Of a stretch of 49,567 nucleotides of DNA, positions 5,757 to 49,567 are shown piece by piece; the first letter of the stretch is position 1; each line of letters opens with the position of its first letter. Source of the DNA: Clostridia bacterium (GTDB taxonomy: Bacteria; Bacillota; Clostridia; Oscillospirales; Acutalibacteraceae). Position numbers and translations under genes: made by a program. The stretch covers positions 1 through 49,567 of the forward strand of contig JAFRUA010000024.1 of assembly GCA_017434855.1 (NCBI GenBank), given 5' to 3'. The notes under the pieces were generated by a model, which worked only from the letters and a program-made list of their open reading frames with translations, did not search any database and was not told where the DNA came from.

Positions 5757-5773
5757 GAAAGGAGGGGAATTTG

Positions 5774-10683: not shown

Positions 10684-11601
10684 ATGCAGCACCTGTATAC
10701 GACCGAACAAATCAATCGGCGCATCAGCACAGAGCCGGCGCGGTTCATTCTGGACTGCGAGGCACGCTTTCGGTCGCAGGTGGAATCGCTGGTTGACGCC
10801 GTGGCCGGGCGGCCGGGGACACAGCTTGTCATGCTGGCGGGGCCCAGCTCTTCCGGCAAGACCACCACGGCAAAGCTGATGTGCGAGGGCTTTGCGCGGT
10901 ACGGTCGGCCGTCGCAGACAATTTCGCTGGATGATTTCTATATTGACCAGAGCGAAATGCCGTGCTTTGAAGATGGCGCGCCGGACTATGAAACCGTGCA
11001 TGCACTGGACATCGACGCCATTGTGCGGTGCATCAATCAGTTGATGCTTGAAGAGAAAAGCCTGCTGCCGCGCTTCAGCTTCCTAACCAAGCGGCAGGCG
11101 GCAGAGCCGGTCGAAACGACCCTTGCGCCGGGCGGCGTTCTGATTGTGGAGGGTCTGCATGCGCTGAACCCGCTGATCACCGACGCAATCGAAAGCGATG
11201 CGGTGACCAAGGTCTATGTCAGCGTCTCATCCCGCATTCTGGAGCAGGACGCGGTGGTGCTGACCAGGCGGGACCTGCGGTTTGTGCGCCGTATGGTGCG
11301 CGACTATCAGTTCCGCAATTCCCCGGTGGACCACACGTTTTATCTTTGGAAGGGCGTGCGAAAGGGGGAGGACCGCTATCTGTTCCCGTTTCGCCGGTTT
11401 GCAGACGTCTGCATCGATTCCATCCATCCGTATGAGCCGTGCGTGTTCAAAGGGGCTGCTTTGCCGCTGCTGCAGGAGATTCCGGACGGCAGCGTCTATG
11501 CCCCGGGCGCGCGGGCGATCGAACACAAACTGACGAAGTTTATTGCTGCCGACGTGTCAAGCGTCCCGAAGAATTCTCTTTTGCGGGAATTTCTCGGCTG
11601 A
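10684..11601 (+). CDS. Nucleoside (uridine-type) kinase, short form
   Basis: The 305-aa P-loop protein carries AGPSSSGKTTTA (Walker A, residues 52-63) and a DDFY motif (LDDFYID) typical of the uridine kinase/phosphoribulokinase family, then VEGLHAL (Walker B-like). Many Firmicutes relatives are about 550 aa, with TGS and threonyl-tRNA-synthetase-like domains in front of the kinase. Those are absent here, leaving only a 45-residue leader. An open frame extends upstream to 10504 but lies inside hemZ. AAAGGCGG and the one-base gap after the hemZ stop support ATG 10684. It phosphorylates a nucleoside, probably uridine or cytidine. Confidence 0.8.
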   Translation: MQHLYTTEQINRRISTEPARFILDCEARFRSQVESLVDAVAGRPGTQLVMLAGPSSSGKTTTAKLMCEGFARYGRPSQTISLDDFYIDQSEMPCFEDGAPDYETVHALDIDAIVRCINQLMLEEKSLLPRFSFLTKRQAAEPVETTLAPGGVLIVEGLHALNPLITDAIESDAVTKVYVSVSSRILEQDAVVLTRRDLRFVRRMVRDYQFRNSPVDHTFYLWKGVRKGEDRYLFPFRRFADVCIDSIHPYEPCVFKGAALPLLQEIPDGSVYAPGARAIEHKLTKFIAADVSSVPKNSLLREFLG

Positions 11602-11622
11602 TCACCGATAGGAGGGTTACTT

Positions 11623-13386: not shown

Positions 13387-13389
13387 AAT
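13361..13389 (+). promoter_or_regulatory. Promoter of mazG inside the end of the flippase gene
   Basis: TTGCAA (13361-13366), a 17-bp spacer and TAAAAT (13384-13389). It starts transcription near 13396, giving a very short leader before the mazG ATG at 13411. Confidence 0.65.
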
Positions 13390-13410
13390 AAGACAACTGA
13401 GGAGTACGGC

Positions 13411-14217
13411 ATGATTGAGTTTGCATTCAAAGAAACTTATGGGTTTGACGATCTGGTTGAGATCATGGCAATTTTGCGCGCCCCGGGCGGCTGCCCGTGG
13501 GACCGGGAACAAACCCACGCGTCCATCAAACGCTCCCTGATCGAAGAGACCTATGAGGTCATTGAGGCGATCAACAAGGATGACAAGACGCTGCTGTGCG
13601 AAGAACTTGGCGACGTGCTGCTGCAGGTGGTGTTCCATGCCGAAATGGAGCGCGAGGCCGGTGTGTTCGACATTGGCGACGTCTGCGACGGCATCTGCAA
13701 AAAACTGATCGAGCGCCACCCGCATGTGTTTGGCGAAACCGTTGTCAGCGGTACGGATGAAGTCCTTGACAACTGGGATGCCATCAAGCGCAGGACCAAG
13801 CACCAGAGCACCCAGGGCGAGGCGATGCAAAAGGTTCCGCTGGAGCTGCCGGCGCTGATGCGCGCCGAAAAGATCCAGGGCAAGGCCAAAAAGGCCGGCT
13901 TTGACTGGGACGAAGTGAGCGGCGCCTATGACGCGCTTGACAGCGAGATTGCCGAACTGAAAGCTGCCGACCGGGCCGGCAACGCCGCAGCGGTGGAAGA
14001 GGAGCTCGGCGACGTGCTGTTTTCCGTGGTCAACGTGGCCCGGTTCTTAAAGGTGGACCCGGAGCAGGCGCTGACGAACGCCAGCAACAAATTCCTGAAG
14101 CGATATCTTGTTGTGGAACGCCTGGCCGCCGAGCGCGGCGTCGATATGAAAACGACGCCGATTGACGCGCTGGACAAGCTTTGGGTCGAGGCAAAAACCG
14201 TTTTAGAGACCAATTGA
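13411..14217 (+). CDS. mazG: Nucleoside triphosphate pyrophosphohydrolase MazG
   Basis: The protein is 268 aa with two MazG domains. The first carries [14 protein letters not shown] and EETYEV...EELGDVL (EExxE...ExxD metal ligands). The second repeats this as EIAEL...[13 protein letters not shown]. MazG hydrolyses NTPs and dNTPs to monophosphates, including aberrant or excess nucleotides, and is linked to lowering of (p)ppGpp in stressed cells. It corresponds to the MazG part of Bacillus YabN without the methylase half. The ribosome site GAGGAG precedes ATG 13411. Confidence 0.95.
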
Positions 14218-14278
14218 GATGGGCCGGCTTCTGCTTGCCGGGTCATCTGTTGGAAATATATTTTTGGAGGCAAAAAGA

Positions 14279-14551
14279 ATGAATAAAGTTGAATTGATCA
14301 ACGCTGTTGCAGCAAAAGCAGAAATCAGCAAAAAGGATGCCGAAAAGGCAGTGTCCGCAGTGCTTGCATCCATCGAGGAATCCCTTGTGAAGGGCGAAAA
14401 GGTCCAGCTGATCGGCTTCGGTACCTTTGAAGTGAAGGAAAGAGCCGCCCGTGTCGGCCACAACCCGCAGACCGGCGCTTCCATCGAGATCGCCGCGTCC
14501 AAGGTTCCGTCCTTCAAGGCGGGCGCCGCGCTGAAGAACGCAGTGAAATAA
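14279..14551 (+). CDS. hup: DNA-binding protein HU
   Basis: The protein is 90 aa, the standard HU length. The start [11 protein letters not shown], the signature [18 protein letters not shown] near residues 46-63 and the end [13 protein letters not shown] are diagnostic. HU is the abundant nucleoid protein that bends and compacts DNA. TTGGAGG at the right distance supports ATG 14279. The longer frame starting at 14219 lacks a ribosome site. A terminator follows directly. Bacillus places other genes here, so hup within the yabM-yabN-yabO order is a clostridial feature. Confidence 0.98.
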
Positions 14552-14561
14552 GAGAGACATC

Positions 14562-14589
14562 GGCTGCCTTGCGCAGCCTGTTTCTTTCA
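14562..14589 (+). terminator. Rho-independent terminator after hup
   Basis: GGCTGC / GCAGCC stem (14562-14578) with a 5-base loop, followed by TGTTTCTTTC. The stem is short, so it may allow read-through into the S4 gene. Confidence 0.65.
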
Positions 14590-14612
14590 TTGCCGCAGAT
14601 TTGGAGGCTGTC

Positions 14613-14852
14613 ATGCGTCTGGATAAGTATCTGAAGGTGTCGCGCATCATCAAGCGCAGAACGGTTGCCAACGAGGTTTGCGACGCAAAGCGCGTCACGG
14701 TGAACGGCAAGATCGCCCGCGCCTCATACGAGGTCAAGGTCGGCGACGTCATCGAAATCCAGATGGGGCCGAACCTGCTGCGGGCAAAGGTTTTGTCTGT
14801 GAGTGAGCACGCGACCAAGAGCGACGCGCCGTCGATGTATCAAATCCTTTAA
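14613..14852 (+). CDS. S4-domain RNA-binding protein, RqcP/YabO-like
   Basis: The 79-aa protein consists of one S4 RNA-binding domain: MRLDKYLKVSRIIKRRT, then CDAKRVTVNG and SYEVKVGDVIEI. In Bacillus this protein (YabO, now RqcP) works with RqcH in ribosome quality control, promoting poly-alanine tailing on stalled 50S subunits. It is also homologous to Hsp15. TTGGAGG ends 6 bp before ATG 14613, so the longer TTG start at 14601 is rejected. Its position after mazG matches yabN-yabO. The expected yabP and yabQ do not follow. Confidence 0.92.
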   Translation: MRLDKYLKVSRIIKRRTVANEVCDAKRVTVNGKIARASYEVKVGDVIEIQMGPNLLRAKVLSVSEHATKSDAPSMYQIL

Positions 14853-14881
14853 AAAAAGTGTGATTTTCTGAAAAGAAAGGC

Positions 14882-14910
14882 TTTACTTTTTGAAAAGGAT
14901 GTGTTATAAT
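14882..14910 (+). promoter_or_regulatory. Promoter of rpsO
   Basis: TTTACT (14882-14887), a 17-bp spacer and TATAAT (14905-14910). Transcription would start near 14917, leaving a leader of about 86 nt that contains two hairpins. Confidence 0.75.
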
Positions 14911-14938
14911 CCTTAGGCATTGTGCCGATTTCTCAGTG

Positions 14939-14973
14939 TGCGGACTTCACCGACCGCATGCCGGGGGTCCGGC
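14939..14973 (+). promoter_or_regulatory. rpsO leader: two adjacent hairpins, candidate S15 autoregulatory RNA
   Basis: Hairpin 1: TGCGG / CCGCA (14939-14958) with a 10-base loop. Hairpin 2: GCCGG / CCGGC (14960-14973) with a GGGT loop. Both lie in the 5' leader just before the rpsO ribosome site. Ribosomal protein S15 is known to bind structured leaders of its own mRNA in several bacterial groups. The specific fold is not verified here. Confidence 0.45.
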
Positions 14974-15002
14974 GAATGAAATATTTTTATGAGGTGAACA
15001 GC

Positions 15003-15269
15003 ATGATCACAAAAGAAGAAAAGAACGCAATCATCAAAGAGTATGCGACCCACGAGGGCGACACCGGTTCGCCGGAGGTTCAGATCGCGATCCTGACGCA
15101 TCGCATCAACACCCTGACCGAGCACCTGAAGGTCAACAAAAAGGACCACCATTCCCGCCGCGGCCTTCTGATGATGGTCGGTCACAGAAGAAACCTTCTT
15201 GCTTATCTGCAAAAGGTGGACATCGAGCGCTACCGTTCGATCGTTGCAAGACTCGGTTTGCGTAAATAA
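15003..15269 (+). CDS. rpsO: 30S ribosomal protein S15
   Basis: The protein is 88 aa, the standard bacterial S15 length. The S15 signature ([20 protein letters not shown] and [16 protein letters not shown]) is intact, with the 16S rRNA-binding residues H41-D48 region present. It binds the 16S central domain early in 30S assembly. ATG 15003 is preceded by GAGGTGA. pnp lies downstream, the classic rpsO-pnp pairing. Confidence 0.99.
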
Positions 15270-15281
15270 GTTCTTGACAGA

Positions 15282-15313
15282 CAGCAGGCACACAGGGTTG
15301 TGTCTGCTGTTTA
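15282..15313 (+). terminator. Rho-independent terminator between rpsO and pnp
   Basis: An 11-bp stem CAGCAGGCACA / TGTGTCTGCTG (one G-U pair) with a 6-base loop, followed by TTTAT. The T-tract is short, so partial read-through into pnp is likely. Confidence 0.75.
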
Positions 15314-37857: not shown

Positions 37858-38519
37858 TGCGCGCCCTCCGTCTGCTGCTTTGCCAGCTTGACAATGGCGC
37901 TGGTGCCCAGCCGTTCGCAGCCGAGCGCCAGGAACGCTTCGGCGTCAGCCAGGGTGCGGATGCCGCCGGCCGCTTTCATTTTCAGGTGGGGCGGAATGTT
38001 TGCACGGAACAGCTCGATGTCTGCGATCGTTGCCCCGCCGGTGGAAAAGCCGGTGGACGTCTTGATAAAGTCCGCGCCCGATTCGCCCACAATGCCGCAA
38101 AGCGCTTTTTTTTCTTCGTCGGTCAACAGGCAGGTTTCGATGATGACCTTGAGCACCTTGCCCGGGCAGGCGGCGCGCACGGCCTTGATCTCGTCCAGCA
38201 CGGCGTCATACCGCCCCTCTTTCACCAGCCCCACGTTGATGACCATGTCGATCTCATCCGCGCCGTTCGCCACGGCGTCGGCGGTTTCAAACACCTTTGA
38301 TTCTGCGGTACTGTAGCCGTTCGGGAAGCCGATGACCGTACAGATGGCCAGCTGGTCGCCGACATAGTCCTTTGCCTGCCGCACAAACGACGGCGGGATG
38401 CAGACGCTTGCCGTGCGGCAGCGCAGGCCGTCGTCACAGACGGCTTGAATCTCTTTCCATGTGGCGTCCTGCCGCAGCAGGGTGTGGTCGCAGTGCGCAA
38501 GAATGGCTGAAAGTTCCAT
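37854..38519 (-). CDS. deoC: Deoxyribose-phosphate aldolase
   Basis: The 221-aa class I aldolase cleaves deoxyribose-5-phosphate to glyceraldehyde-3-phosphate and acetaldehyde. The Schiff-base lysine is K153 in FIKTSTGF. K124 in LKVIIETCLL and the Asp in EIDMVIN complete the proton relay. The start was chosen at ATG 38519 because AAAGG lies 9 bp before it. The in-frame ATG at 38528 directly abuts AAAGG. Family N-termini usually begin near this Met. It is the first gene of the deoC-pdp operon. Confidence 0.95.
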   Translation of the reverse strand: MELSAILAHCDHTLLRQDATWKEIQAVCDDGLRCRTASVCIPPSFVRQAKDYVGDQLAICTVIGFPNGYSTAESKVFETADAVANGADEIDMVINVGLVKEGRYDAVLDEIKAVRAACPGKVLKVIIETCLLTDEEKKALCGIVGESGADFIKTSTGFSTGGATIADIELFRANIPPHLKMKAAGGIRTLADAEAFLALGCERLGTSAIVKLAKQQTEGAQ

Positions 38520-38561
38520 ATGCTTCATCCTTTCGTTTCAGATGTTGATTTCGCAGCTTTC

Positions 38562-38590
38562 ACTATAGCACATTTTTCCGGTTTGGTCAA
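38562..38590 (-). promoter_or_regulatory. Promoter of deoC-pdp
   Basis: Minus strand: TTGACC (38585-38590), a 17-bp spacer and TATAGT (38562-38567). Confidence 0.82.
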
Positions 38591-38703
38591 CCGGCTGCCG
38601 ACAGGGTGCGATGATGACAATTTTGTAAATTTTTCGTGCGCTATGGCTTTTTGGCGCTGGATACGCTATAATAAAACAAGTTCATGACAAGGGGGTTTCT
38701 GTG

Positions 38704-40248
38704 ATGAAACGAACAAGCAGAAAGATCTTTGCGCTTTTGCTGGCGGCGGCGCTGCTGATTGGCACGCTGCAGACCGCGGTGCTTGCGGCAGAGGGCAATC
38801 AAGCCGCGGGCGTCTGCCCGACGATCTATGTCCACGGCTTTATGTCTGAAAGTGTTTATACGGATCAAAACGACCCGTCGTCGCCCGAGGTGTTCCCGGA
38901 CGGCGCACAGGAAATACTGGACGCGATCAAACCCGCCCTGCCGGACATTGCCGGCGCGCTTGCCCGCCAGGACTGGGAAGCGTTCGGCGACAAGGCGGCC
39001 GCCGTTGCGCTGGAACTTCTGTCCCCGGCGTTTTTGGGAGAGGACGGCGAAGTCCAGAACGGGTCCGGCGTCTTTTTCGTGTATCCGAAGAAGGAGGACA
39101 TCACGCCGGGCAGCACCCTGCGGTTTTCCTATGACTGGCGCGCCGACCCGATGGACAGTGCGGCAAAGCTCAACGATTTTGTCAACTACGTCTGCGATGC
39201 GGCGGGGGTGCAAAAAGTCAATATGTTCGGTCACAGCCTCGGCGGACTGATCATGCATACCTATTTCACCCTTTACGGGACGGACCATGTTCGCAGCGTG
39301 TGCTTTAACACGGCGGCGATCTATGGCGAAACCTATACCGGCGAGCTGATGAACGGCGACCTCCTGATTTCAGCGGATGCGCTGACCGGCTATCTTCGTT
39401 TTCTGGCGGATGAAAACGACTATCCCGTACTGCTTGACGGCCTGGTGACGTTGCTGGAACAGTCCGGCATTGCAGCGCTTGTGGAGCGCATGGGGAACGG
39501 CCTGCTTGAAAAAATCCGTGACACGCTGCAGCGCCGCGTGATGCTGCCGCTGTTTGCCAACTGGCCGTCGATCTGGAGCATGGTGCCGGACGACTACGTG
39601 GACGGCGCCATTGACTATGTCTTCAACGGCTTTTATGCCGGGGAGGATCACAGCGCCCTGCGTGAAAAGGTTGACGCCTACAACACCCAGGTGCGCGCCC
39701 ATCGGGAAGAGACGCTGCTGGCCCTCAACGAAGCTGCAAACGTCTATGTCATATCGCGGTACGGGTCCATGTCGTTCCCGCTGACGACGTCTTATCGGAA
39801 TCTCAGCGACAGCGTGATCGACACCAAGTTTTCCTCCTTCGGCGCCACGACCGGTCGGTTCAACGAGCCGTTGCCCGAAGATTATCGCGCAACGGTTCCG
39901 GCGGGATATCTTTCGCCGGACGGCACGGTGGACGCGTCCACCTGCCTGTTCCCGGAGCAGACGTGGTTCGTGCGCGGCCTGCATCATTCCAGTCATCCGG
40001 ATGCGATGGAGGAAATGATCTATACGCTTTTGTATTACGACGGCCAGGCCACGGTGGATACGTTTGAGATGTATCCGCGCTTCATGTACTATGAGTATCA
40101 GACAGACACCTTTGCCCCGGATGTGTCCGCGCCGGCGCCGCAGTTCGGCGATCGGCTGCGTGCAGGGTTCCGCGAATTCACGGCGCTGCTGAAGGATCTG
40201 TTTGACCGGCTGCTTTCCCGCCTGAAAGACGCTTTCCGTATCAAGTAA
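38704..40248 (+). CDS. Secreted alpha/beta-hydrolase, lipase-like
   Basis: The 514-aa protein has a Sec signal peptide of about 29 residues (MKRTSRKIFALLLAAALLIG, end VLAAE). A lipase-type fold follows: the oxyanion stretch YVHGFM near 42-47 and the nucleophile elbow GHSLGG with Ser178. A histidine candidate lies in RGLHHSSHPDAM near residue 425. A lid-like insertion of about 150 residues separates the two. It ends in an amphipathic basic helix (LKDLFDRLLSRLKDAFRIK) that could bind membranes. There is no sortase or lipobox anchor. The ribosome site AAGGGGG supports ATG 38704 (GTG 38701 also possible). It divides the two deo operons. Confidence 0.86.
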   Translation: MKRTSRKIFALLLAAALLIGTLQTAVLAAEGNQAAGVCPTIYVHGFMSESVYTDQNDPSSPEVFPDGAQEILDAIKPALPDIAGALARQDWEAFGDKAAAVALELLSPAFLGEDGEVQNGSGVFFVYPKKEDITPGSTLRFSYDWRADPMDSAAKLNDFVNYVCDAAGVQKVNMFGHSLGGLIMHTYFTLYGTDHVRSVCFNTAAIYGETYTGELMNGDLLISADALTGYLRFLADENDYPVLLDGLVTLLEQSGIAALVERMGNGLLEKIRDTLQRRVMLPLFANWPSIWSMVPDDYVDGAIDYVFNGFYAGEDHSALREKVDAYNTQVRAHREETLLALNEAANVYVISRYGSMSFPLTTSYRNLSDSVIDTKFSSFGATTGRFNEPLPEDYRATVPAGYLSPDGTVDASTCLFPEQTWFVRGLHHSSHPDAMEEMIYTLLYYDGQATVDTFEMYPRFMYYEYQTDTFAPDVSAPAPQFGDRLRAGFREFTALLKDLFDRLLSRLKDAFRIK

Positions 40249-40263
40249 CCAATCAATGAAACA

Positions 40264-40316
40264 CAACGCCCGCGCTTCTCTCCCGGTGAAAGAGGCGCGG
40301 ACGTTTTTTAAAATCT
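40264..40316 (+). terminator. Terminator after the lipase gene
   Basis: AACG-C-CCGCGC with GCGCGG-A-CGTT, plus inner TCT/AGA, then TTTTTT. It also lies at the end of the convergent cdd gene. Confidence 0.8.
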
Positions 40317-40320
40317 TTCT

Positions 40321-40725
40321 TTAAAGCTGCGCTTTGGAAAAGCTGAGCGGCAGCAGCTCGGCCAGCGGATAAACCCTGGGTTCGCCGCTGTCGGTCCCGA
40401 GGATCACGCGAAAGTCCGGCGCGCAGAATTCCGCCATCACCTGGCGGCACACGCCGCACGGCGGGCAAAGCGCGTCAAACACGCCGCGCTTTCCGCCGAC
40501 GATCGCGATGGCGCAAAAGCTGCGTTCACCTTCGCTGACCGCCTTGAAAAACGCGGTGCGCTCCGCACAGTTTGTGGGGCCGAAGGCGGCGTTTTCAATG
40601 TTGCAGCCAAGATAGACCTTGCCGCTTTCTGCCAGCAGCGCCGCGCCGACGGTGAAGCCGGAATACGGCGCATAGGCAAAGGATGCGGCCTGTTTTGCCA
40701 GGGCGATCAATCGTTCATCTGTCAT
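40321..40725 (-). CDS. cdd: Cytidine deaminase
   Basis: The 134-aa homotetramer-type enzyme deaminates cytidine and deoxycytidine to uridine forms. Zinc ligands are C53 in NCAERTA (with catalytic Glu55), and C90 and C93 in PPCGVCRQ. GGAGG lies 7 bp before ATG 40725. The first codons overlap deoB by 11 bp. It is the last gene of the deoD-deoB-cdd operon and feeds uridine to Pdp. Confidence 0.97.
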   Translation of the reverse strand: MTDERLIALAKQAASFAYAPYSGFTVGAALLAESGKVYLGCNIENAAFGPTNCAERTAFFKAVSEGERSFCAIAIVGGKRGVFDALCPPCGVCRQVMAEFCAPDFRVILGTDSGEPRVYPLAELLPLSFSKAQL

Positions 40726-41896
40726 ATGGCGCCTCCGTGATCTGATCCTTGAAGCTTTTGCCGGCCAGCGCATTCGGTACGCCGAACAGGTCGGCGATCG
40801 TTTTTCCGATGTCGGCATAGGTCGCGCGTATGCCGAGATTGACCGGCTTTACATGTTTTCCGTAAACGAGCAGGGGAATGTATTCCCGCGAGTGGTCGGT
40901 GCTGGGCGTGCAGGGGTCGCAGCCGTGGTCCGCCGTGATGAACAGCAGGTCGTCGCCTTGCAGCGTCGGCAAAAATGCGGCCAGCCAGCGGTCAAATTCC
41001 ATCAGTGCGTTGGCGTACCCCGGGGCGTCGTTGCGGTGGCCGTAGCGCATGTCAAAATCGACCAGATTCGTGAAGCACAGGCCGCAAAAGTCCGTTTCGG
41101 AATAATCCGACGTCATCTGCATTCCGTCGGCGTTGGAAACGGTGGGGTGCGCCTTGCACAGACCCTTCCCGGCGAAGATGTCAAAAATCTTTCCGACCGG
41201 GAGCACGTCGTATCCGGCGCCCGCCAGCACGTCGATCAGCGTGTCGCCCGGCGGAACCAGTGAAAAATCATGGCGGCGCGGCGTCCGTGTGAAGGGGAAC
41301 GTCCCGGTGAACGGCCGCGCGATGACGCGCCCCACGGCGTGTTTGCCCTGCAGAATGTCCCGCGCGATGCGGCAGTATTCATACAGCGTTTCAACCGGAA
41401 CCTTGTCTTCATGCGCGGCGATCTGAAAGACAGAGTCCGCCGAGGTATAGACGATCAGCGCCCCGGTTTTCAGGTGTTCCTCACCGTAATCTGCGATGAC
41501 CTGCGTGCCGGAATACGGCTTGTTGCAAAGAACGGCGCGGCCGGTCCGGCGGGCGAATGCATCGATGACCTCCGGCGGAAAGCCGTCCGGGTACGTCGGC
41601 ATGGGCGTTTCTGAAATCAGTCCGCAGATTTCCCAGTGTCCGGTGGTGGTGTCTTTGCCGGCCGACGCTTCGGCGCATTTGCCATAGGCGCCGATGGGGA
41701 ACGCCGTTCTTTTGCCGCAGCCCACACCGTCGATGTTGAACAGACCGAGCGATTGCAGCGCCGGAACCTCAAAGCCCGGCTGGGCGCAGCAGGAGCGCAG
41801 CGTGTTGCTGCCGGCATCGCCATAGGCGGCAGCGTCCGGCAATTCGCCGACGCCGACGCTGTCCAGCACGATCAAAAAGACGCGGCGCGGTTTCAT
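40715..41896 (-). CDS. deoB: Phosphopentomutase
   Basis: The 393-aa alkaline-phosphatase-superfamily mutase interconverts (deoxy)ribose-1- and 5-phosphates. The metal-binding Asp is in IVLDSVGVGELPDA (D12), the active Thr in the following SNTLRS stretch, and the other metal ligands lie in TADHGCDP and TDHSREYIP. Its ATG overlaps the deoD stop by 4 bp and its end overlaps cdd. It links the nucleoside phosphorylases to DeoC. Confidence 0.97.
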   Translation of the reverse strand: MKPRRVFLIVLDSVGVGELPDAAAYGDAGSNTLRSCCAQPGFEVPALQSLGLFNIDGVGCGKRTAFPIGAYGKCAEASAGKDTTTGHWEICGLISETPMPTYPDGFPPEVIDAFARRTGRAVLCNKPYSGTQVIADYGEEHLKTGALIVYTSADSVFQIAAHEDKVPVETLYEYCRIARDILQGKHAVGRVIARPFTGTFPFTRTPRRHDFSLVPPGDTLIDVLAGAGYDVLPVGKIFDIFAGKGLCKAHPTVSNADGMQMTSDYSETDFCGLCFTNLVDFDMRYGHRNDAPGYANALMEFDRWLAAFLPTLQGDDLLFITADHGCDPCTPSTDHSREYIPLLVYGKHVKPVNLGIRATYADIGKTIADLFGVPNALAGKSFKDQITEAPYDR

Positions 41897-42621
41897 GCGG
41901 TCACCCCGTCCGATGCGGCGGCGGTTTCCAGCGCCAGGCGGATCATGTCGGTAAAGGTGTTTTGCCGCTCTTCCGCCGTGCAGCCTTCACCGGTGAAGGG
42001 CAGGTCCGACACGGTGCAGATAGCCAGCGCACGTTTTTTGCAGCGCATGGCGGTCAGATACAGGCCCGCCGCTTCCATCTCCACGGCGATGGATCCGCAG
42101 GCCGCCCATTGCTTGAGCACAGTCGGGTCCGGATCATAGAACGTGTCGGCAGACAGCAGGTTGCCGACCTTGAGCGTCAGGCCCAGCGCTTCGGCGCAGC
42201 GGTCCGCCGTTTTCAAAAGGGCATAGGAGCAGGTGGGCGCCAGCGTGCCGGGGACCCCGAACTGATCGGCAAACGCGGAGTTGGTATTGGCCCCCAGACC
42301 GGCGACCAGGTCGCGCAGCCCGACGCCTTCACCGATGCCGCCGGCAGAGCCGACGCGGATGATGTTCTCTACGCCGAAAAAGGTGTAAAGCTCATAGGCA
42401 TAGATCCCGATGGACGGGATGCCCATGCCGCTGGCCATGACCGAGACCTTGTGGCCGTGATAGGTGCCGGTATAGCCCTGAACGCCGCGCACATTGTTCA
42501 CAAGGACGGCGTTTTCCAAAAAAGTTTCGGCAATCATTCTGGCGCGCAGGGGGTCGCCGGGCATCAGCACTGTCCCGGCAAAGCCCACGTCGTTGAGCGG
42601 TACGATATGCGGTGTTTTCAT
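41893..42621 (-). CDS. deoD: Purine-nucleoside phosphorylase, DeoD type
   Basis: The 242-aa hexameric PNP family enzyme carries the phosphate-binding MPGDPLRA at 20-27, RVGSAGGIG and the ribose/base segment AVEMEAAGLY. It splits purine nucleosides to the base and (deoxy)ribose-1-phosphate. GGAGGGAA lies correctly for ATG 42621. The in-frame ATG at 42636 precedes that ribosome site and is rejected. It is the first gene of the deoD-deoB-cdd operon. Confidence 0.96.
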   Translation of the reverse strand: MKTPHIVPLNDVGFAGTVLMPGDPLRARMIAETFLENAVLVNNVRGVQGYTGTYHGHKVSVMASGMGIPSIGIYAYELYTFFGVENIIRVGSAGGIGEGVGLRDLVAGLGANTNSAFADQFGVPGTLAPTCSYALLKTADRCAEALGLTLKVGNLLSADTFYDPDPTVLKQWAACGSIAVEMEAAGLYLTAMRCKKRALAICTVSDLPFTGEGCTAEERQNTFTDMIRLALETAAASDGVTA

Positions 42622-42652
42622 TTTGATTCCCTCCATCTGTCAATCTGACCCG

Positions 42653-42681
42653 ATTTTACCACAGAATGCCGCAATTTGCAA
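42653..42681 (-). promoter_or_regulatory. Promoter of deoD-deoB-cdd
   Basis: Minus strand: TTGCAA (42676-42681), a 17-bp spacer ending TGG, and TAAAAT (42653-42658). Confidence 0.78.
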
Positions 42682-42729
42682 CCTTGGCGCGCAGGAAACT
42701 CAACATTTGTAGGTTATCTTTTCAGAGCA

Positions 42730-42758
42730 TTGACTTTTTGCACCATACCCGCTATAAT
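42730..42758 (+). promoter_or_regulatory. Promoter of the ligase-condensation-ACP operon
   Basis: TTGACT (42730-42735), a 17-bp spacer and TATAAT (42753-42758). It diverges from the deoD promoter about 50 bp away. Confidence 0.88.
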
Positions 42759-42766
42759 GCAAAAAG
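42734..42766 (+). promoter_or_regulatory. Perfect 9-bp inverted repeat around the -10 box: candidate operator
   Basis: CTTTTTGCA (42734-42742) and TGCAAAAAG (42758-42766) are exact inverse copies 15 bp apart, covering the spacer and the -10. The position predicts repression. No regulator gene lies next to it. Confidence 0.65.
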
Positions 42767-42833
42767 ATAAGAGACAGAATTGTGCCTTTTGCCTATGTTT
42801 TAATCAACAAATGTCGAAAAAAGGGGTGCTGTC

Positions 42834-44381
42834 ATGGATATGAAAAACATTCTGACGGTGCGTGATCTTTTGGATGACGCAGCAAATAAATATGCCGATC
42901 AGACCTTTTTGAAATTCTATCGGGACGGTAAGATCGAAGAACGCAGCTTTAACGTCAACCGGCAGCACAGCCTGGCGGTCTGCCGCTGGATCCGTGCGAT
43001 GCACACCCAGCGCATGCATGTCGCTTTCATCGGAAAGACAAGCTATGAATACATCACCTGCCTGACCGGCATCCTCATCAGCGGCAATGTTGCCATTCCG
43101 TTTTCGCCGGACATTTCGGCGCGGGAGGCTGCGATCCTGATGGAGCGCGCCGACGTGGATCTGCTGCTGTATGACGACAGCTTTGCCGCCCAGGCAAAAG
43201 AAATCATCGAAAGCGGCACCCTGCTGCGCGATGTGGTCAATATCGGCGACGCCGCGTTTTTTGAAGAAATCTATCAGACCTACGGGGATGATTCCGAATA
43301 CGCGTCGCTGTCTGATGTTGCGATTGACCCGGACGCCTGCGCCGTGATGATCTATACCTCCGGTACCACCGGCGTGCGCAAGGGCGTGATGCTTTCCTCC
43401 CGGGCGCTGGTCGGCAACGTGATGTATCACGATTATGTGACCGACGCGTTTCGCCCAAACGACGTGGCGCTGTCGGTGCTGCCGATGTTCCATGTGTATT
43501 GCTTCACCGGCGATTATCTGAAAAATATGAAGGACGGTCTGCAGGTCGCGCTCAACGGCAATCTGCGCGACGTGGTCCAGAATCTGACGCGGTTTGAGCC
43601 GCGCGTCATGCGCGTGGTGCCCATGATCGCCCAAACGCTGCTGCGCCGTGTCAAGACGGTGCTTGCCCGCAACCCGGACATGGACCCGCGCGACGCCGCC
43701 AAAAAAGTCTTTGGCCGCAACATCAAATGGCTGATCTCCGGCGGCGCCTATCTTGATCCGGCGCTGGTGGATGAATATGAAACCGTCGGCATTTTCCTGC
43801 GTCAGGGGTACGGCATGACCGAGGCCGGCTGCCGCATCTCGGTGCCGGATGAAGCCGCAGACAAAACGTCTGTGGGCCGCGTGATCGACCTGTGCCGGGC
43901 GCGCATCCAGCACGGAGAGATTCAGGTCGATACGCCGACCAAAATGCTCGGGTACTACAAAATGCCGGAGGAAACGGCGGCGATCTTCACCGACGACGGC
44001 TGGCTGAAAACCGGCGACATCGGCATCCTGACCGACGACGGCGTGCTGTTCATCACCGGCCGGGTGAAAAACCTGATCATCCTTTCCAACGGCGAAAACG
44101 TTTCACCCGAGGCGATCGAAAAGAAATTTGACCATGAGCCGATCGTTGACGAGGCGGTCGTCTATGCGCAAAACGACCGCATCGTGGCGGAAATCTATCC
44201 CAACTACGATTACATCGCGGAAAACCGGATTGACGATGTCAGCGAGGTCATTGAAGCGATGATCGACACGATGAACCTGACGGCCAAGCCGTCGCATGTG
44301 ATTGCAAACTTTAAGCTTCGTTCCACCCCGTTTGAGCGGACCGGCAGCGGCAAGCTCGTGCGGCCCAGTGCAAAGCTTTGA
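42834..44381 (+). CDS. Adenylate-forming acyl/aminoacyl ligase, free-standing
   Basis: The 515-aa ANL-superfamily enzyme activates a carboxylic acid with ATP. Visible core motifs are YTSGTTGVRKG at 174-184 (P-loop), QGYGMTEAG, the TGD of WLKTGDIGIL, and the hinge GRVKNLIILSNGENVSPEAIE (first 20 residues read from G). The catalytic Lys is in GSGKLVR at the end. The substrate could be a fatty acid or an amino acid, since the specificity pocket cannot be read with confidence. It is the first gene of a three-gene operon with a condensation protein and a carrier protein, so it probably loads the carrier. AAGGGGTG precedes ATG 42834. Confidence 0.92.
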   Translation: MDMKNILTVRDLLDDAANKYADQTFLKFYRDGKIEERSFNVNRQHSLAVCRWIRAMHTQRMHVAFIGKTSYEYITCLTGILISGNVAIPFSPDISAREAAILMERADVDLLLYDDSFAAQAKEIIESGTLLRDVVNIGDAAFFEEIYQTYGDDSEYASLSDVAIDPDACAVMIYTSGTTGVRKGVMLSSRALVGNVMYHDYVTDAFRPNDVALSVLPMFHVYCFTGDYLKNMKDGLQVALNGNLRDVVQNLTRFEPRVMRVVPMIAQTLLRRVKTVLARNPDMDPRDAAKKVFGRNIKWLISGGAYLDPALVDEYETVGIFLRQGYGMTEAGCRISVPDEAADKTSVGRVIDLCRARIQHGEIQVDTPTKMLGYYKMPEETAAIFTDDGWLKTGDIGILTDDGVLFITGRVKNLIILSNGENVSPEAIEKKFDHEPIVDEAVVYAQNDRIVAEIYPNYDYIAENRIDDVSEVIEAMIDTMNLTAKPSHVIANFKLRSTPFERTGSGKLVRPSAKL

Positions 44382-44413
44382 GAATAAAAAATATTCGACA
44401 GGAGAATCAAGTT

Positions 44414-45814
44414 ATGAAAAAAGTGATCAAGGGACCCGTCTATGACCTGACCCCGGCGCAGGATATGATTCAGTTCATGCTGAAGTATTCCTTTTTCCAC
44501 AAGCAAGTGACCCAGATTCCCGAATCTATCATCACTGAAAAAGAGATTGATTTTGACGTGATGAAACAGGCCGTCAACCTTGAAATCGAGCGCAACGACT
44601 GCATGCGCCTGCGTTTTTTCAAAGAGAAGGGAAAGATCAAGCAGTATTTCCTTGACAAGCTGACGGTCGACGACATCCCGGTTTTGACCTTCAAGACCGA
44701 AGAGGAGCAGCTTGCGACGCTGACCGCCGACGCGCAGACGCCGGTGCGTATGCTCAAGGACGAGACCTATCGCATCAAATTCTTCCGGTCCTTTGACGGG
44801 CGGTACGGTATCTATATCTGCGTGCACCATCTGGTCATGGACAATTTGGCCTGCTTTGTGTTCTTCAACGATCTGCTGGCGTGCTATGACCACCTGAAGG
44901 ACGGCGCCCCGCTGCCGAAGCCGCTCGGCAAGTTTGAGGACGGCATCAAAAAGGAACTGGCCTGGATCGCCGATCCCGAAAACCTCAAGCGCGAAGAAAA
45001 GGCGTATGAGGAATACATCACCCGCGACGGCGAGCCGACCTATATGGGCGTGGAAGGCCCGAAGTACCTGGAGGCCGAGCGCAAAAAGAAAAAGGACCCG
45101 AACATCAAGTACGTGTCGCTGTTTGATCCGATCCATGACAAGGCCGGCTTCACCAAAAAGACCATTCCCTATGAAGACAGCCAGAAGATCATCAAGTTCA
45201 TGGACGACAACGACTTCGGCGGCGAATGCCTGATCCAGCTTGCCATGCGCATCTTCCTGTCAAAGATCAACAACCATGTGCTGGATTCCTATTTCATCCC
45301 GCTTTGCCCGCGCCGCCGCACAGTGAGCGAAAAGCGCTCCGGCGGCACCTATGCCGCGCCGCTGCCGTGGCGCATGGTGCTCAAGGATGAAGACACCTTC
45401 TATGACGCGATGAAGCTGATCCGCGAGCAGCAGATGTGGGCGTTCCGCCACATGGATTATCCCTATCTGGAATACCGCAACCTGCAGCGCCGCGTGTTCA
45501 ACTACGGTGCGGCGTCCGCGTCCAGCACCATGATGTTCTCGTGGTTCCCGCTGGAAGAGAACACCATGAACAACTGGGACTATGAGTTCGTCGGATACGG
45601 CATCGGCCGCTATGTCATGGTGCTTTATACCTTCGCTATGAAGGACGTCAAAAACGGAACCATCAAGGTCACCTATCAGCACCGCACCAAATTCATCTCG
45701 GTCGAAGACATCGACCGCTTCCAGGACGGTGTGGAGCAGGTGCTGCGCATCGCTGTGGAAAACCCGCAGATCACCATCGGTGAGCTGCTTGACAAAGTTC
45801 AGGTCAAAGCATAA
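44414..45814 (+). CDS. Free-standing condensation-domain protein (NRPS C-like)
   Basis: The 466-aa protein is one complete condensation/acyltransferase domain. The catalytic motif HHLVMDN occupies residues 138-144, matching HHxxxDG with Asn for the final Gly. The N-terminal DLTPAQDMIQFM resembles the C1 motif, and later segments (YFIPLCPRRR, ASSTMMFSWF) follow the two-lobed fold. Such domains join an acyl group on one carrier to an amine or alcohol. Since no second carrier or thioesterase is encoded nearby, the acceptor may be a free small molecule or lipid. GGAG precedes ATG 44414, 32 bp after the ligase stop. Confidence 0.87.
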   Translation: MKKVIKGPVYDLTPAQDMIQFMLKYSFFHKQVTQIPESIITEKEIDFDVMKQAVNLEIERNDCMRLRFFKEKGKIKQYFLDKLTVDDIPVLTFKTEEEQLATLTADAQTPVRMLKDETYRIKFFRSFDGRYGIYICVHHLVMDNLACFVFFNDLLACYDHLKDGAPLPKPLGKFEDGIKKELAWIADPENLKREEKAYEEYITRDGEPTYMGVEGPKYLEAERKKKKDPNIKYVSLFDPIHDKAGFTKKTIPYEDSQKIIKFMDDNDFGGECLIQLAMRIFLSKINNHVLDSYFIPLCPRRRTVSEKRSGGTYAAPLPWRMVLKDEDTFYDAMKLIREQQMWAFRHMDYPYLEYRNLQRRVFNYGAASASSTMMFSWFPLEENTMNNWDYEFVGYGIGRYVMVLYTFAMKDVKNGTIKVTYQHRTKFISVEDIDRFQDGVEQVLRIAVENPQITIGELLDKVQVKA

Positions 45815-45832
45815 GAAACGGAGGAAACAATC

Positions 45833-46081
45833 ATGGATAAAAAACTTGAATCAATCATCGCCATCATTTCCGATTTTGTGGACGTCGATCCCGCAGAAGT
45901 GACCAAGGATTCCAAGCTGCGTGCGGACCTCGGCCTCAATTCGTTTGATTTTGTCAACATCGCCGTGGCGTTTGAGTCGGAGTTCGGCGTTTCGATTCCC
46001 GACAAGGACATTCCGGAGCTGCGCACGGTCGGCGATATTCTGGCGCTGATCGAATCGAAGCAGGACGCGCTGTCCAAATAA
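45833..46081 (+). CDS. Acyl/peptidyl carrier protein, free-standing
   Basis: The 82-aa acidic helical protein has the phosphopantetheine site Ser37 in ADLGLNSFDFVNI, which has Asn-Ser-Phe where fatty-acid ACPs have Asp-Ser-Leu. That variant is common in secondary-metabolism carriers and DltC-like proteins. The C-terminal helix IPELRTVGDILALIE is typical. It lies 18 bp after the condensation gene with AAACGGAGGAAACA as ribosome site. A phosphopantetheinyl transferase is needed but not present in the window. A terminator follows. Confidence 0.94.
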   Translation: MDKKLESIIAIISDFVDVDPAEVTKDSKLRADLGLNSFDFVNIAVAFESEFGVSIPDKDIPELRTVGDILALIESKQDALSK

Positions 46082-46104
46082 TTTGTACATAGATCTTCGG
46101 AAAG

Positions 46105-46130
46105 GGCTGCAGCGGGACTGCGGCCTTTTT
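46105..46130 (+). terminator. Terminator of the ligase-condensation-ACP operon
   Basis: GGCTGCAG / CTGCGGCC stem (one G-U pair), a 5-base loop, then TTTTT. Confidence 0.82.
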
Positions 46131-46216
46131 GGGTACCGGAATGCATGGCGACCGCAGTCCGGGCGTCCATTCATAAAAAATTCAAGGGAATTTTACAGCT
46201 TCGGCATGTGATCTTC

Positions 46217-46245
46217 TTGCATTTTTCAACGGAATGAGATAGAAT
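46217..46245 (+). promoter_or_regulatory. Promoter of the Cys-rich repeat protein gene
   Basis: TTGCAT (46217-46222), a 17-bp spacer and TAGAAT (46240-46245). It leaves a leader of about 95 nt before ATG 46349. Confidence 0.75.
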
Positions 46246-46348
46246 AGAATCAGGAATCGGCGACCTCTGAAAGCGCAAGTTGTTTGCGTGCGCGCAGGTT
46301 TTGAGTTGCCCAATCTATCATATTTTTTCAACAAAGGTTGTGAACGGA

Positions 46349-48031
46349 ATGATAAAACGATTCTGTGCGCTTTTGATCTGCGCATTGCTGCTTTGCACGT
46401 TCGCGGTCCCGCTGTCAGCCGGCGCGGAAACTGCCGAGTGCGAAGACGGGGCGCATCAGTTCGGCGACTGGGTGATCGTGACCGCGTCGACCTGCACGGA
46501 AAAAGGGCTGCAGACCCGGACATGCTCTCTTTGCGGAAAAACCGAGGAGCAAAAGACCAACGCCCTTGGCCATGATTACAGCACGGACTATGTTCCGATC
46601 CGCCCGGCAACCTGCACCGCAGACGGGACCGAGGCGCACAAGTGCAGCCGCTGCGACGATTATATCGGTCTGCGTGTCGTCACAAAGACGGGGCACGCGT
46701 TCAGCGACTGGGCGGTTCGCACGCCGGCGGGCTGTCTTACAGACGGCGAAGAGTATCAGATCTGCGCCAAATGTCAGGAGGAGCGCACGCGCATTTTGCC
46801 GGCGCTGGGGCATGACGAGGTCATTGACGAGCCGATCGAGCCGAAGTGCATGGTCAACGGCCGCACGGCCGGCACACACTGCAGCCGCTGCGGCACGGTG
46901 TTTGTGAAGCCGGAGATCGTTCCCTCCACCGGGCACGATGTGGTCACGGACGAGGCGGTTCCCGCAACCTGCACCACAGACGGAAAAACCGAAGGCAGCC
47001 ATTGCAGCCGCTGCGGACTGGTGATCGAGCCGCAGACCACGGTTCCGAAGCTGGGGCACAAGACCGTGATCGACGAAGCGGTCTCGTCCACCTGCTCGGT
47101 GCCGGGCAAGACCGAGGGCAGCCATTGTGAGCGCTGCGGGCAGGTGTTCTTTCCGCAAAAGGAACTGCCGCTGCGCAGCCATGATTACGAGATCTCCTTT
47201 GTGCCGAAAACCTGCACGACCGACGGCTATACCCTGCACACCTGCCGGTTGTGCGGCGCAACCAGCATGAGCGATTTTGATTACGCGGTCGGGCACAAGC
47301 TGGTCTATGAACCGGCGATTCCGGAAACCTGCACCACCGACGGCCTGTCGGCCAAGGCAACCTGCACGGTCTGCGGCGAGGTGGTGGAGCCGGCGCGGGT
47401 CATTCCGGCGCTCGGTCACCGGTGGGTCCTGACTGTGACGCCCGCAACCACCCGGACGGATGGCCGTGTGATCAAATCCTGCAGCATCTGCGGCGAAGTG
47501 AAACCGGGCTGCGACGTTGCGGTTGCCAAAATCGCTTCGATCAAGCTGTCGCAAAAGAAATACATCTGTGACGGCAAAAAGAAAACCCCGACCGTTACCA
47601 TCACCGACGCGGACGGAAAGACGCTGAAATACAAAAAGGATTATAAGCTTGCCTATGACTCGGGCCGCAAAAAGATCGGGACCTATTATGTCACCGTGAC
47701 CTTCTGCGGCAAATACGCGGGCACCAAGGCGCTGCGGTTCTATGTCGTGTTCGGCCGGCCGGCCGGCCTTGCCGCCAAGGCGAAAGACGGCGGCGTTGTC
47801 GGGCTGAGCTGGGACAAGACGCCCGGCGCGGCCAGATATTACATTGAGTGTTCCACCAGCAAAAAGGGCACCTATACACAGGTCGGCGCCACGGCAAAGA
47901 ATTATATCAATCTCAAGGGCCTGAAAAGCAACACGACCTACTATTTCCGCATCCGGGCCTTCACCGTATCCACCACGGGCGAAAAGGTCTTCAGCGGCTA
48001 CAGCGCGCCGGTCAAGGTGACAACAAAGTAG
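46349..48031 (+). CDS. Secreted protein with nine Cys/His repeats, a beta domain and Fn3
   Basis: The 560-aa protein has signal peptide MIKRFCALLICALLLCTFAV ending near SAGAET. Residues about 35-395 contain nine repeats of 38-41 aa. Each has a first Cys in a TCT-DG-like turn, a CxxC knuckle (CSRC, CERC, CSLC and so on) 8-10 residues later, and a final Gly-His or Ser-His. The ninth repeat lacks the first Cys (TTRTDG). A beta-rich domain (VAKIASIKLSQKKYI ... GTYYVTVTFCGKYAG) and an Fn3 domain (GVVGLSWDKTPGAARYYIE ... TTYYFRIRAF) follow. No anchor motif is seen. Three Cys and one His per repeat could bind metal or form disulfides. The function is unknown, with adhesion or matrix binding plausible. 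Start: AAAGG upstream of ATG 46349. Confidence 0.85.
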   Translation: MIKRFCALLICALLLCTFAVPLSAGAETAECEDGAHQFGDWVIVTASTCTEKGLQTRTCSLCGKTEEQKTNALGHDYSTDYVPIRPATCTADGTEAHKCSRCDDYIGLRVVTKTGHAFSDWAVRTPAGCLTDGEEYQICAKCQEERTRILPALGHDEVIDEPIEPKCMVNGRTAGTHCSRCGTVFVKPEIVPSTGHDVVTDEAVPATCTTDGKTEGSHCSRCGLVIEPQTTVPKLGHKTVIDEAVSSTCSVPGKTEGSHCERCGQVFFPQKELPLRSHDYEISFVPKTCTTDGYTLHTCRLCGATSMSDFDYAVGHKLVYEPAIPETCTTDGLSAKATCTVCGEVVEPARVIPALGHRWVLTVTPATTRTDGRVIKSCSICGEVKPGCDVAVAKIASIKLSQKKYICDGKKKTPTVTITDADGKTLKYKKDYKLAYDSGRKKIGTYYVTVTFCGKYAGTKALRFYVVFGRPAGLAAKAKDGGVVGLSWDKTPGAARYYIECSTSKKGTYTQVGATAKNYINLKGLKSNTTYYFRIRAFTVSTTGEKVFSGYSAPVKVTTK

Positions 48032-48052
48032 AAGCAACAGAAGAATAACTCA

Positions 48053-48088
48053 AACGGGCAAAGCGTGATTGCGGCGCCCGTTCTTTTT
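48053..48088 (+). terminator. Terminator after the repeat protein gene
   Basis: AACGGGC / GCCCGTT stem with a 16-base loop containing a small inner GC/GC pair, then CTTTTTG. Confidence 0.8.
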
Positions 48089-48136
48089 GTGCAAAACAAA
48101 AACATTGCCTTGTCCGGATTTTTTTGCGGAAAAGGC

Positions 48137-48165
48137 TTGCAAATTTTTTCGTTTTGTTATAGAAT
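48137..48165 (+). promoter_or_regulatory. Promoter of pgk-tpiA
   Basis: TTGCAA (48137-48142), a 17-bp spacer and TAGAAT (48160-48165). Confidence 0.75.
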
Positions 48166-48172
48166 AATTCTA
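48160..48172 (+). promoter_or_regulatory. 13-bp palindrome on the pgk -10 box (PerR/Fur-box-like)
   Basis: TAGAAT-A-ATTCTA, perfect around one base. Aligned to the PerR box (TTATAAT-N-ATTATAA) it keeps the 7-1-7 layout with about 11 of 14 positions equal. It overlaps the -10, so a bound repressor would block transcription. Confidence 0.35.
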
Positions 48173-48219
48173 ATTGGAAATCAATGATTTGCCATAAAAA
48201 TACCGAAAGGAACGAAACT

Positions 48220-49413
48220 ATGAACGTACTCAACAAGAAATCTGTCAAAGACATCGACGTCAAAGGCAAAAAGGTCCTTGTCCGCTGCGACTTCAACGTC
48301 AAAATGGAAAACGGCGTCATCACCAGCGACAAGCGCATCGTCGCGTCGCTGCCCACCATTCAATATCTGCTTGACAACGGCGCCAAGGTCATCCTTTGTT
48401 CCCATCTTGGCCGGCCAAAGGGCGAATTCAATCCGGAATTTTCGCTGGCGCCCGTCGCCGCGCGTCTGAGCGAGCTGCTGGGCATCGAGGTCAAAATGGC
48501 CAAGGACGTTGTGGGCGAGAGCGCAAAGAGCCTTGCCGCCGACCTGAAAGCGGGCGAAGTGCTGCTGCTTGAAAACGTGCGGTTCCACGCGGAAGAGACC
48601 AAGAATGACCCCGAATTCTCCAAGGCGTTGGCCTCTTTGGCAGAAATCTATGTCAACGACGCCTTCGGCTCTGCACACAGAGCGCACTCCTCCACCACCG
48701 GCGTAGCCGACTATCTGCCGGCCGTCTGCGGTTTCCTGATCCAGAAGGAGCTGGATTATATCGGCGGCGCGCTTGAAAATCCGAAGCGCCCGCTGGTCGC
48801 CATCCTCGGCGGCGCGAAAGTGTCCGATAAAATCGGCGTCATCACCAACCTGATGGAAAGCGTGGATACCCTGATCGTCGGCGGCGGCATGGCCTACACC
48901 TTCTTTGCCGCGCTCGGCCACACGGTCGGCACCTCACTGCTGGAGGCCGACAAGATCGACCTTGCCAAGGGCATGATGGACAAGGCGAAGGAAAAGGGCG
49001 TCAACTTCCTGATCCCGGTCGATAACGTGATCGGCAAGGAATACAAAGAAGATACCGAATACAAAGTGGTCGATTCCGACGACATTCCTGATGGCTGGAT
49101 GGGCCTTGACATCGGTCCCAAGAGCACGGCGCTCTTTGCCGAGGCTGTCAAGGACGCCGGCACCGTGATCTGGAACGGCCCGATGGGCGTTTCCGAATGG
49201 GAGCACTTTGCAAACGGTACGATCGGCGTGGCCACCGCGATTGCAGAAAGTGACGCGATCTCCATCATCGGCGGCGGCGACAGCGCGGCTGCCATCCAGA
49301 AGCTCGGCTTCGCGGACAAGATGACGCACATCTCCACCGGCGGCGGCGCTTCTCTGGAATTCTTAGAGGGCAAGCAGCTTCCCGGTATCGTCGCGCTGAA
49401 CGAAAAAGTCTGA
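48220..49413 (+). CDS. pgk: Phosphoglycerate kinase
   Basis: The 397-aa glycolytic enzyme transfers phosphate from 1,3-bisphosphoglycerate to ADP. The signature [12 protein letters not shown] near the N-terminus (substrate-binding Asp, Asn, Arg), [19 protein letters not shown] and the nucleotide-side GGGDSAAA with [13 protein letters not shown] are intact. Length is standard. GAAAGGAACG supports ATG 48220 over the in-frame ATG at 48184, which lies upstream of that site. tpiA follows after 27 bp. The usual gap gene is not directly upstream. Confidence 0.98.
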
Positions 49414-49440
49414 TCCCGACATAAAGAAAGTAATAGTATC

Positions 49441-49567
49441 ATGAATAAAGCTCTGCGTAAAGCCGTGATCGCCGGCAACTGGAAAATGAACAAGACGCCC
49501 GCCGAAACGAAGGTGCTGATCGAAGAAATGAAGCCCCTCGTCAAGGACGCGGACTGCGACGTGGTAC
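49441..49567 (+). CDS. tpiA: Triosephosphate isomerase, N-terminal part (cut by window end)
   Basis: A frame opens at ATG 49441 and runs off the window. The first 42 residues include [18 protein letters not shown], where the N-K of GNWKMNK contains the catalytic-site Asn and Lys of triosephosphate isomerase. It is the second gene of the pgk-tpiA glycolytic operon. The ribosome site is weak (AAGAAAGTAATAG). Confidence 0.95.

Follow-up and report, generated by a model that had tools for sequence, protein, structure and literature searches.

The window analyzed here is a 49,567-nucleotide stretch of contig JAFRUA010000024.1 from a Clostridia bacterium (GCA_017434855.1; Acutalibacteraceae). On its plus strand, three consecutive open reading frames (ORFs), separated by gaps of 32 and 18 bases, encode an acid-activating ligase (A), a free-standing condensation protein (C) and an acyl carrier protein (ACP). 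An earlier sequence-only reading had described them as a tightly spaced trio making up a one-module acyl-conjugation line, and both descriptions agree with the results given below. We consider it likely that the trio forms an operon sufficient in itself for N-acylation by three proteins, along a pathway of the fatty-acid amide (FAA) kind. A stand-alone adenylating ligase, an ACP and a C domain encoded together, the combination by which FAA pathways are recognized, were all found at the locus. The features are as follows.

42834..44381, plus strand: acid-activating ligase of the ANL superfamily, fatty-acid ligase-like, 515 amino acids (Pfam and NCBIfam models)
44414..45814, plus strand: free-standing condensation protein, 466 amino acids (Pfam, PDB match, tree and insertion)
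45833..46081, plus strand: acyl carrier protein, 82 amino acids, phosphopantetheine site Ser37 (Pfam PP-binding and aligned Ser)
42730..42758, plus strand: sigma-70-type promoter, TTGACT-17-TATAAT (11 of 12 consensus matches)
46100..46130, plus strand: terminator-like hairpin whose 3' arm includes a T run, not a consensus terminator (fold)

The listed ORF of the condensation gene opens at a TTG at 44378, and the ATG at 44414, which gives the 466-residue protein, is the likelier start. The promoter lies 75 bases 5' of the ligase start. A scan of 3.8 kb gave 8 promoter-like sites, compared with 2.3 in shuffled sequence, and the pattern TTGAC-16/18-TATAAT occurs four times in the 49.6-kb window against an expectation of 0.02. 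Sites with at least 10 of 12 matches lie within 250 bases 5' of the ligase in 11 of the 13 trio loci, window included, a count made without a shuffle control. The hairpin 3' of the carrier gene has a 13-pair stem, and its 60-base fold has a predicted energy of −22.1 kcal/mol, likewise without a shuffle control; a scan for consensus terminators did not call it, and its T run sits inside the stem. The ligase, condensation and carrier genes most likely form a single operon.

The condensation protein

The sequence-only reading had called for a Pfam check of the three proteins, and all three matched above cut-off. The Condensation model covers residues 9 to 457 of the condensation protein (107.6 bits), which is thus the complete free-standing domain that had been claimed, with the motif HHLVMDN at H138 to N144. 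The His and Asp of the motif, H139 and D143, are invariant in 10 of 10 aligned homologs, window included, and an inactive or degraded condensation-like acyltransferase was rejected on the ground that both are kept. A condensation domain of a modular nonribosomal peptide synthetase (NRPS) was also rejected, as this is a 466-residue single-domain protein with no adjoining second carrier. Kinship with the fatty-acid amide clusters of gut Clostridia, which had been suggested earlier, was borne out: the best PDB match is 12KH (E 4.3e-42), the structure of OaaC, which serves as condensation protein in the oleoyl-aminovalerate pathway, and the two proteins fall on the same side of the tree described below. 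The next match is PvdL (E 3.7e-8). Identity to the 18 other C domains in that tree is 12 to 18%.

The tree comprised 79 rows, namely, 60 free-standing proteins (window included), OaaC, which is the only characterized FAA protein among them, and 18 other C domains, of which 17 lie in open frames of more than 1000 amino acids and one (L104) in a frame of 533. These 18 were drawn from 28 C-domain loci, the remaining 10 being left out, as were the fragments L011 and L013 and the NRPS match G054. The 61 free-standing rows, OaaC included, form one side of a branch with support of 100/99. Their nearest neighbor among the others is L107, which comes first of the two C domains listed for its frame. A recent preprint places FAA C domains in a clade that adjoins the starter C domains (PMC13142362). 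Our placement appears to agree with that arrangement, to the extent that L107 is a starter domain. The free-standing rows divide further: a clade of 21 rows (100/99) contains OaaC and one of 37 rows (100/96) contains the window, the latter holding a 36-row clade (100/99) and a 13-row subclade (100/100) marked by the motif HHxxMDN. Two other placements may be recorded. Rows L092, L093 and L094, all free-standing condensation proteins, group as a small clade on a long branch and share the motif [YF]H[MI]IMDS and the gene order A-ACP-C, and the C domain (L001) of a 2204-residue NRPS encoded elsewhere in the same genome (contig C62, locus L095, 5604-12218) falls among the NRPS rows.

An insertion also separates the two sides of the tree. 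The stretch around residues 207 to 230 of the window protein, taken as the length between aligned anchors, measures 21 to 23 residues in 61 of 61 free-standing rows, including the window and OaaC, and 6 to 13 residues in the 18 other C domains; L092 to L094 have the insertion length and not its sequence pattern. The preprint gives the OaaC insertion as 17 residues with a helix (PMC13142362).

The motif distinguishes the window's subclade more finely. HHLVMDN is present in 12 of its 13 rows and HHVVMDN in the other, so that a motif ending in DN occurs in all 13 full-length members and in none of the 66 remaining rows. Because it is fixed in the subclade and absent from the rest of the set, HHxxMDN is a real subgroup mark. 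At the position preceding the catalytic His, the other rows of the 36-row clade carry I, C, S or T, and at the one following the Asp they carry A or F; the first-position His and the Asn therefore look derived. A literature search for "HHxxxDN" found nothing, most subscription journals being outside its reach. The sequence-only reading had held that both this motif and the Asn-Ser-Phe site of the carrier mark a distinct subgroup. The claim is supported for the former and not for the latter: in the carriers of these loci the Ser is aligned in 51 of 51 and is preceded by Asn in 26 (Asp in 2) and followed by Phe in 20, which makes the site an ordinary one.

The ligase and the carrier

The ligase matches Pfam AMP-binding (165.5 bits) and AMP-binding_C_3 above cut-off, and its best NCBIfam model is a long-chain-fatty-acid--CoA ligase, at 207.3 bits and below that model's cut-off of 476. 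The P-loop YTSGTTG and the lysine of the C-terminal TGSGK are present, and all 7 aligned ligases keep T175 to G180 and K507 unchanged. The carrier, in which Ser37 is placed as had been claimed, matches PP-binding above cut-off (48.8 bits) and narrowly misses the cut-offs of two NCBIfam models for acyl carrier proteins (69.1 of 71 and 64 of 70.45); nearly all of its PDB matches, among the 60 of 97 listed, are named acyl carrier proteins.

Distribution and neighborhoods

At E ≤ 1e-10, relatives of the condensation protein were found in 37 of 250 genomes of the window's bacterial family (its own included); in G054, one of the 37, the sole match is weak and lies within a 2481-residue frame. In a class-level sample of 391 genomes, a match at E ≤ 1e-60 was found in the window's own genome only, at a threshold that members of the 36-row clade passed in the family scan and OaaC-like proteins did not. 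A contig scan gave 11 loci, with record titles naming sheep rumen, rectum and colon, horse feces, water deer rectum and RUG assemblies. A tblastn search of the condensation protein against plasmids returned 20 records, all below 60% identity; the eight matches listed are three RenE (22%), the rest being NRPS-type or unannotated.

The neighborhood comparison that the sequence-only reading had proposed showed that, among 14 loci of the HHxxMDN clade, nine keep the complete A-C-ACP order, two are cut by contig ends (L006 and L011) and three have the C gene only. Because nine keep the complete order, the arrangement of the trio is not a matter of chance. The order recurs in other genera at different genomic places, and in five loci, window included, the trio stands at the same place beside deoB- and deoD-like genes. 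No accessory gene common to the window-type loci as a whole was found in this comparison. Genes that recur at OaaC-like loci encode an alpha/beta hydrolase, a small SCP2-like protein and a TetR-like regulator (the last two identified by eye). None of the three adjoins the window's trio, and one such hydrolase lies near L046 on the opposite strand. A Gfo/Idh/MocA oxidoreductase found 3' of the C gene in L009, L010 and L012 and 3' of the trio in L046 was set aside, since it looks like shared flanking sequence.

In the window itself, the upstream neighbors are cdd-, deoB- and deoD-like genes, and downstream lie a secreted fibronectin type III (fn3) protein and then pgk, the names other than that of the fn3 protein having been read by eye from the translations. 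The flanking genes on both sides are housekeeping or unrelated. Among the window genes inspected, no thioesterase, second carrier or phosphopantetheinyl transferase (PPTase) adjoins the trio, as had been reported earlier. The genome's sole match to the PPTase family PF01648 is a 217-residue protein on contig C63, which also gives a below-cut-off match to AASDHPPT_N. A small PPTase-like gene family, recognized by eye, occurs near other free-standing condensation genes (L054, L072, L074 and L087), unlike at the window. Rfam gave no matches in 38000-49567 of the window.

Two secreted proteins near the trio may be recorded. The fn3 protein directly downstream (46280-48031) also has repeated Cys-rich units, and a relative of it lies 3' of the trio in L004. 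The other, at 38701-40248, is a secreted alpha/beta hydrolase; its GHSLGG motif resembles that of lipases, and Pfam gives alpha/beta hydrolase only. Relatives of this hydrolase occur at 8 of 63 clustered loci, window included, and the family is present in 24 of 37 genomes with a condensation relative compared with 10 of 60 without (Fisher p 2e-6, the genomes being related, and the 60 being the genomes without a condensation relative among G001-G071). There are 25 copies in this genome and 5 to 17 in each of 23 other positive genomes, and its nearness to the trio was therefore given no weight, with no formal test. A link between lipase and trio was dropped in view of the many copies and the related genomes; it is at most a hint of fatty-acid supply.

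Apparent exchange of ligases between condensation lineages

The window's ligase belongs to a 24-row group (100/100) made up of ligases from A-C-ACP loci. The condensation proteins of those 24 loci fall into two distant clades, 16 in the window's (L011, a fragment, being counted there by its motif) and eight in OaaC's, while 11 loci of the window's clade with the order C-A-ACP have another ligase of 575 to 639 amino acids (100/99). A topology that tied the ligases to the condensation split was rejected (p-AU 1e-57; the second ligases L058 and L087 were left out), as was one that grouped the condensation proteins by gene order (1e-79). These p-values are descriptive only, because the groups were named after the trees had been seen. 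The conflict between the two trees suggests that ligases have moved from one lineage to another, and exchange of parts seems the simplest account of it. The conflict also suggests that the parts tolerate exchange in nature, which would be useful to pathway engineers.

A proposed pathway and its alternatives

The assignment to the FAA kind draws on OaaC as the best PDB match, the shared side of the tree, the length of the insertion and a published gene set without a thioesterase. A fatty donor is suggested by the ligase's best NCBIfam model, a fatty-acid ligase, together with the kinship. The C63-encoded protein would place phosphopantetheine on Ser37 of the carrier, in keeping with general knowledge of its family. 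The ligase would then use ATP to convert a free fatty acid, most likely of medium or long chain, to the acyl-AMP and load it onto the carrier. The condensation protein would bind the acyl-carrier, with H139 acting as the catalytic residue and D143 as a structural one, and a small diffusing amine would attack the thioester. The amide would be released directly, so that neither a thioesterase nor an acceptor carrier would be needed. What the sequence shows directly is the genes, their intact motifs, the kinship and the promoter; the chemistry is inferred.

Several observations weigh against this assignment. The condensation protein is 22.9% identical to OaaC and lies outside OaaC's own 21-row clade (100/99). 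The FAA motif is given as (D/H)HxxxDS in the preprint, with S in the last place in 42%, A in 36% and G in 17% of 127 FAA proteins (PMC13142362); the window motif matches it in the His-His pair and the Asp and ends in an Asn outside S, A and G. These three residues account for 95% of the published proteins, so that Asn, if it occurs there at all, would belong to the small remainder. Searched against the PDB by sequence, the ligase matches 4-coumarate--CoA ligases best (E 1.9e-29). No amine-making gene was seen adjoining the trio in the window. Finally, the condensation genes of L009, L010 and L012, which belong to the HHxxMDN clade, have no adjoining ligase or carrier. A single ligase of the window's type is encoded elsewhere in each of the three genomes (E ≤ 1e-60, 50 to 51% identical), and in one of them a carrier lies within 1.5 kb of it.

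The altered motif could instead mark a change of acceptor, to an alcohol or to a carrier-free polyamine, amino acid or sugar, with an ester or other conjugate as the product. A derived change inside the catalytic motif, with both the His and the Asn fixed in 13 of 13 members of the subclade, is what such a change might leave behind. However, the Asn adjoins the catalytic residues and is not one of them, no acceptor-specific gene was seen adjoining the trio, and FAA condensation proteins are described in the preprint as using small amines (PMC13142362); we regard a change of acceptor as unlikely. Because 4-coumarate ligases head the ligase's PDB list, an aryl or short branched acid, held in a similar pocket and yielding an aryl or short-acyl amide, is a conceivable donor. 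This seems quite improbable to us, given the long-chain-fatty-acid--CoA ligase as best NCBIfam model (below cut-off), a long-chain fatty-acyl-CoA synthetase further down the PDB matches (E 1.3e-25) and the kinship of the condensation protein to a fatty-acyl user. A role in housekeeping acylation of lipids or the envelope (for example, of a cell-wall amine) with no small molecule released would suit the strong promoter, the deoB/deoD-like neighborhood shared by five loci and the restriction of the window's condensation clade to one bacterial family among the genomes sampled, but it is very unlikely given the patchy occurrence of any relative (37 of 250 family genomes), the differing genomic places in other genera and the lack of an envelope gene seen adjoining the window's trio.

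If the FAA assignment is correct, the occurrence of related operons in sheep, horse, deer and rumen samples would suggest lipid-amide signaling, with the host or between microbes, beyond the human gut. The HHxxMDN clade would supply a set of sequences with a fixed catalytic-motif change, through which acceptor specificity is open to comparative test.

A second locus with a GH3 protein

The second free-standing condensation gene of the genome lies at locus L064 on contig C76, where C (4377-5777), ACP (5814-6047) and GH3 (6210-7925) genes follow one another on the plus strand. The 13.8 kb around it contained nothing related to the window's ligase at E ≤ 1e-3. A free-standing C gene lies within 3 kb of 5 of 40 GH3 matches, compared with 0.19 expected, and GH3 is present in 23 of 37 genomes with a condensation relative compared with 1 of 40 without (Fisher 6e-9), figures that are inflated by kinship, three of the five loci being in the window's genus and two of them near-identical. 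In L064, L069 and L070 the GH3 gene is near the C gene with no ANL ligase adjoining, L069 and L070 also being without a carrier. In L062 and L083 it adjoins a complete ligase-C-carrier set, and is therefore ill suited to a simple replacement of the ligase. Adjoining the set in L062 there is also a 1376-residue frame on the minus strand (11179-15309) with ligase, carrier, reductase-like and alcohol dehydrogenase-like parts, as judged by eye.

Plant GH3 proteins join acids to amino acids via an adenylate, which would make a link to these loci chemically sensible. We know of no GH3 protein with a carrier-loading or carrier-linked acyl-activating role, and a search for literature on GH3 with a condensation domain, Clostridia and acyl carrier protein found none, most subscription journals being outside its reach. 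We therefore raise only tentatively the possibility of a mix-and-match kit for making acyl amides in this family of animal-gut Clostridia, in which one kind of free-standing condensation protein and carrier is combined with interchangeable activating enzymes: ligases would have crossed between lineages, HHxxMDN proteins would have their own acceptor, and GH3 would occupy the place of the ANL ligase in some loci, L064 among them. If this holds, GH3 at that place would be a carrier-loading or carrier-linked acyl-activating enzyme.

Comparison with known systems

Among the closest known systems is the oleoyl-aminovalerate pathway of Coprococcus eutactus, reportedly treated by Chang in 2021. The preprint identifies that pathway as OaaA, OaaC and OaaACP (Singh, Grant and Gulick 2026, PMC13142362), which in vitro produced amides of aminovalerate or gamma-aminobutyrate with oleoyl, palmitoleoyl and lauroyl groups (PMC13142362). 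According to the same source, ligands of host G protein-coupled receptors have been reported as products of FAA pathways in human-gut Clostridia (PMC13142362). A further feature of the FAA kind is a homodimer that holo-ACP disrupts. The window's trio resembles the OaaA/OaaC/OaaACP system in its three separate proteins, its free-standing condensation protein with an FAA-length insertion, its lack of a thioesterase and acceptor carrier and its side of the condensation tree. The condensation proteins differ in belonging to different clades, at 22.9% identity, and in their motifs, DHRLMDS in OaaC and HHxxMDN in the window. The sequence-only reading had allowed that the trio might already be a named and characterized pathway; a pathway of the same kind is indeed named and has been reconstituted, but not one of this clade.

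Closer relatives share one half of the trio each. A-C-ACP loci such as L075, L077 and L083 have the window's gene order and ligases from its 24-row group, whereas their condensation proteins lie in OaaC's clade and have the motif HHLAMDA, HHLAFDG or QHLAMDA. Conversely, C-A-ACP loci such as L051 and L060 have condensation proteins in the same 36-row clade as the window and differ in gene order and in their 575- to 639-residue ligase. Canonical NRPS condensation domains (18 rows; PvdL and the tyrocidine synthases) share the Pfam Condensation match and the second His and the Asp of the motif, but are 12 to 18% identical, lack the insertion, mostly have HHxxxDG or HHxxxDA and, in 17 of 18 cases, lie in frames of more than 1000 amino acids. 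Judged from these comparisons of sequence, the general explanation for the trio is already in print, and the trio itself seems to be a separate branch of that theme, with a fixed active-site change and ligases that have seemingly been exchanged.

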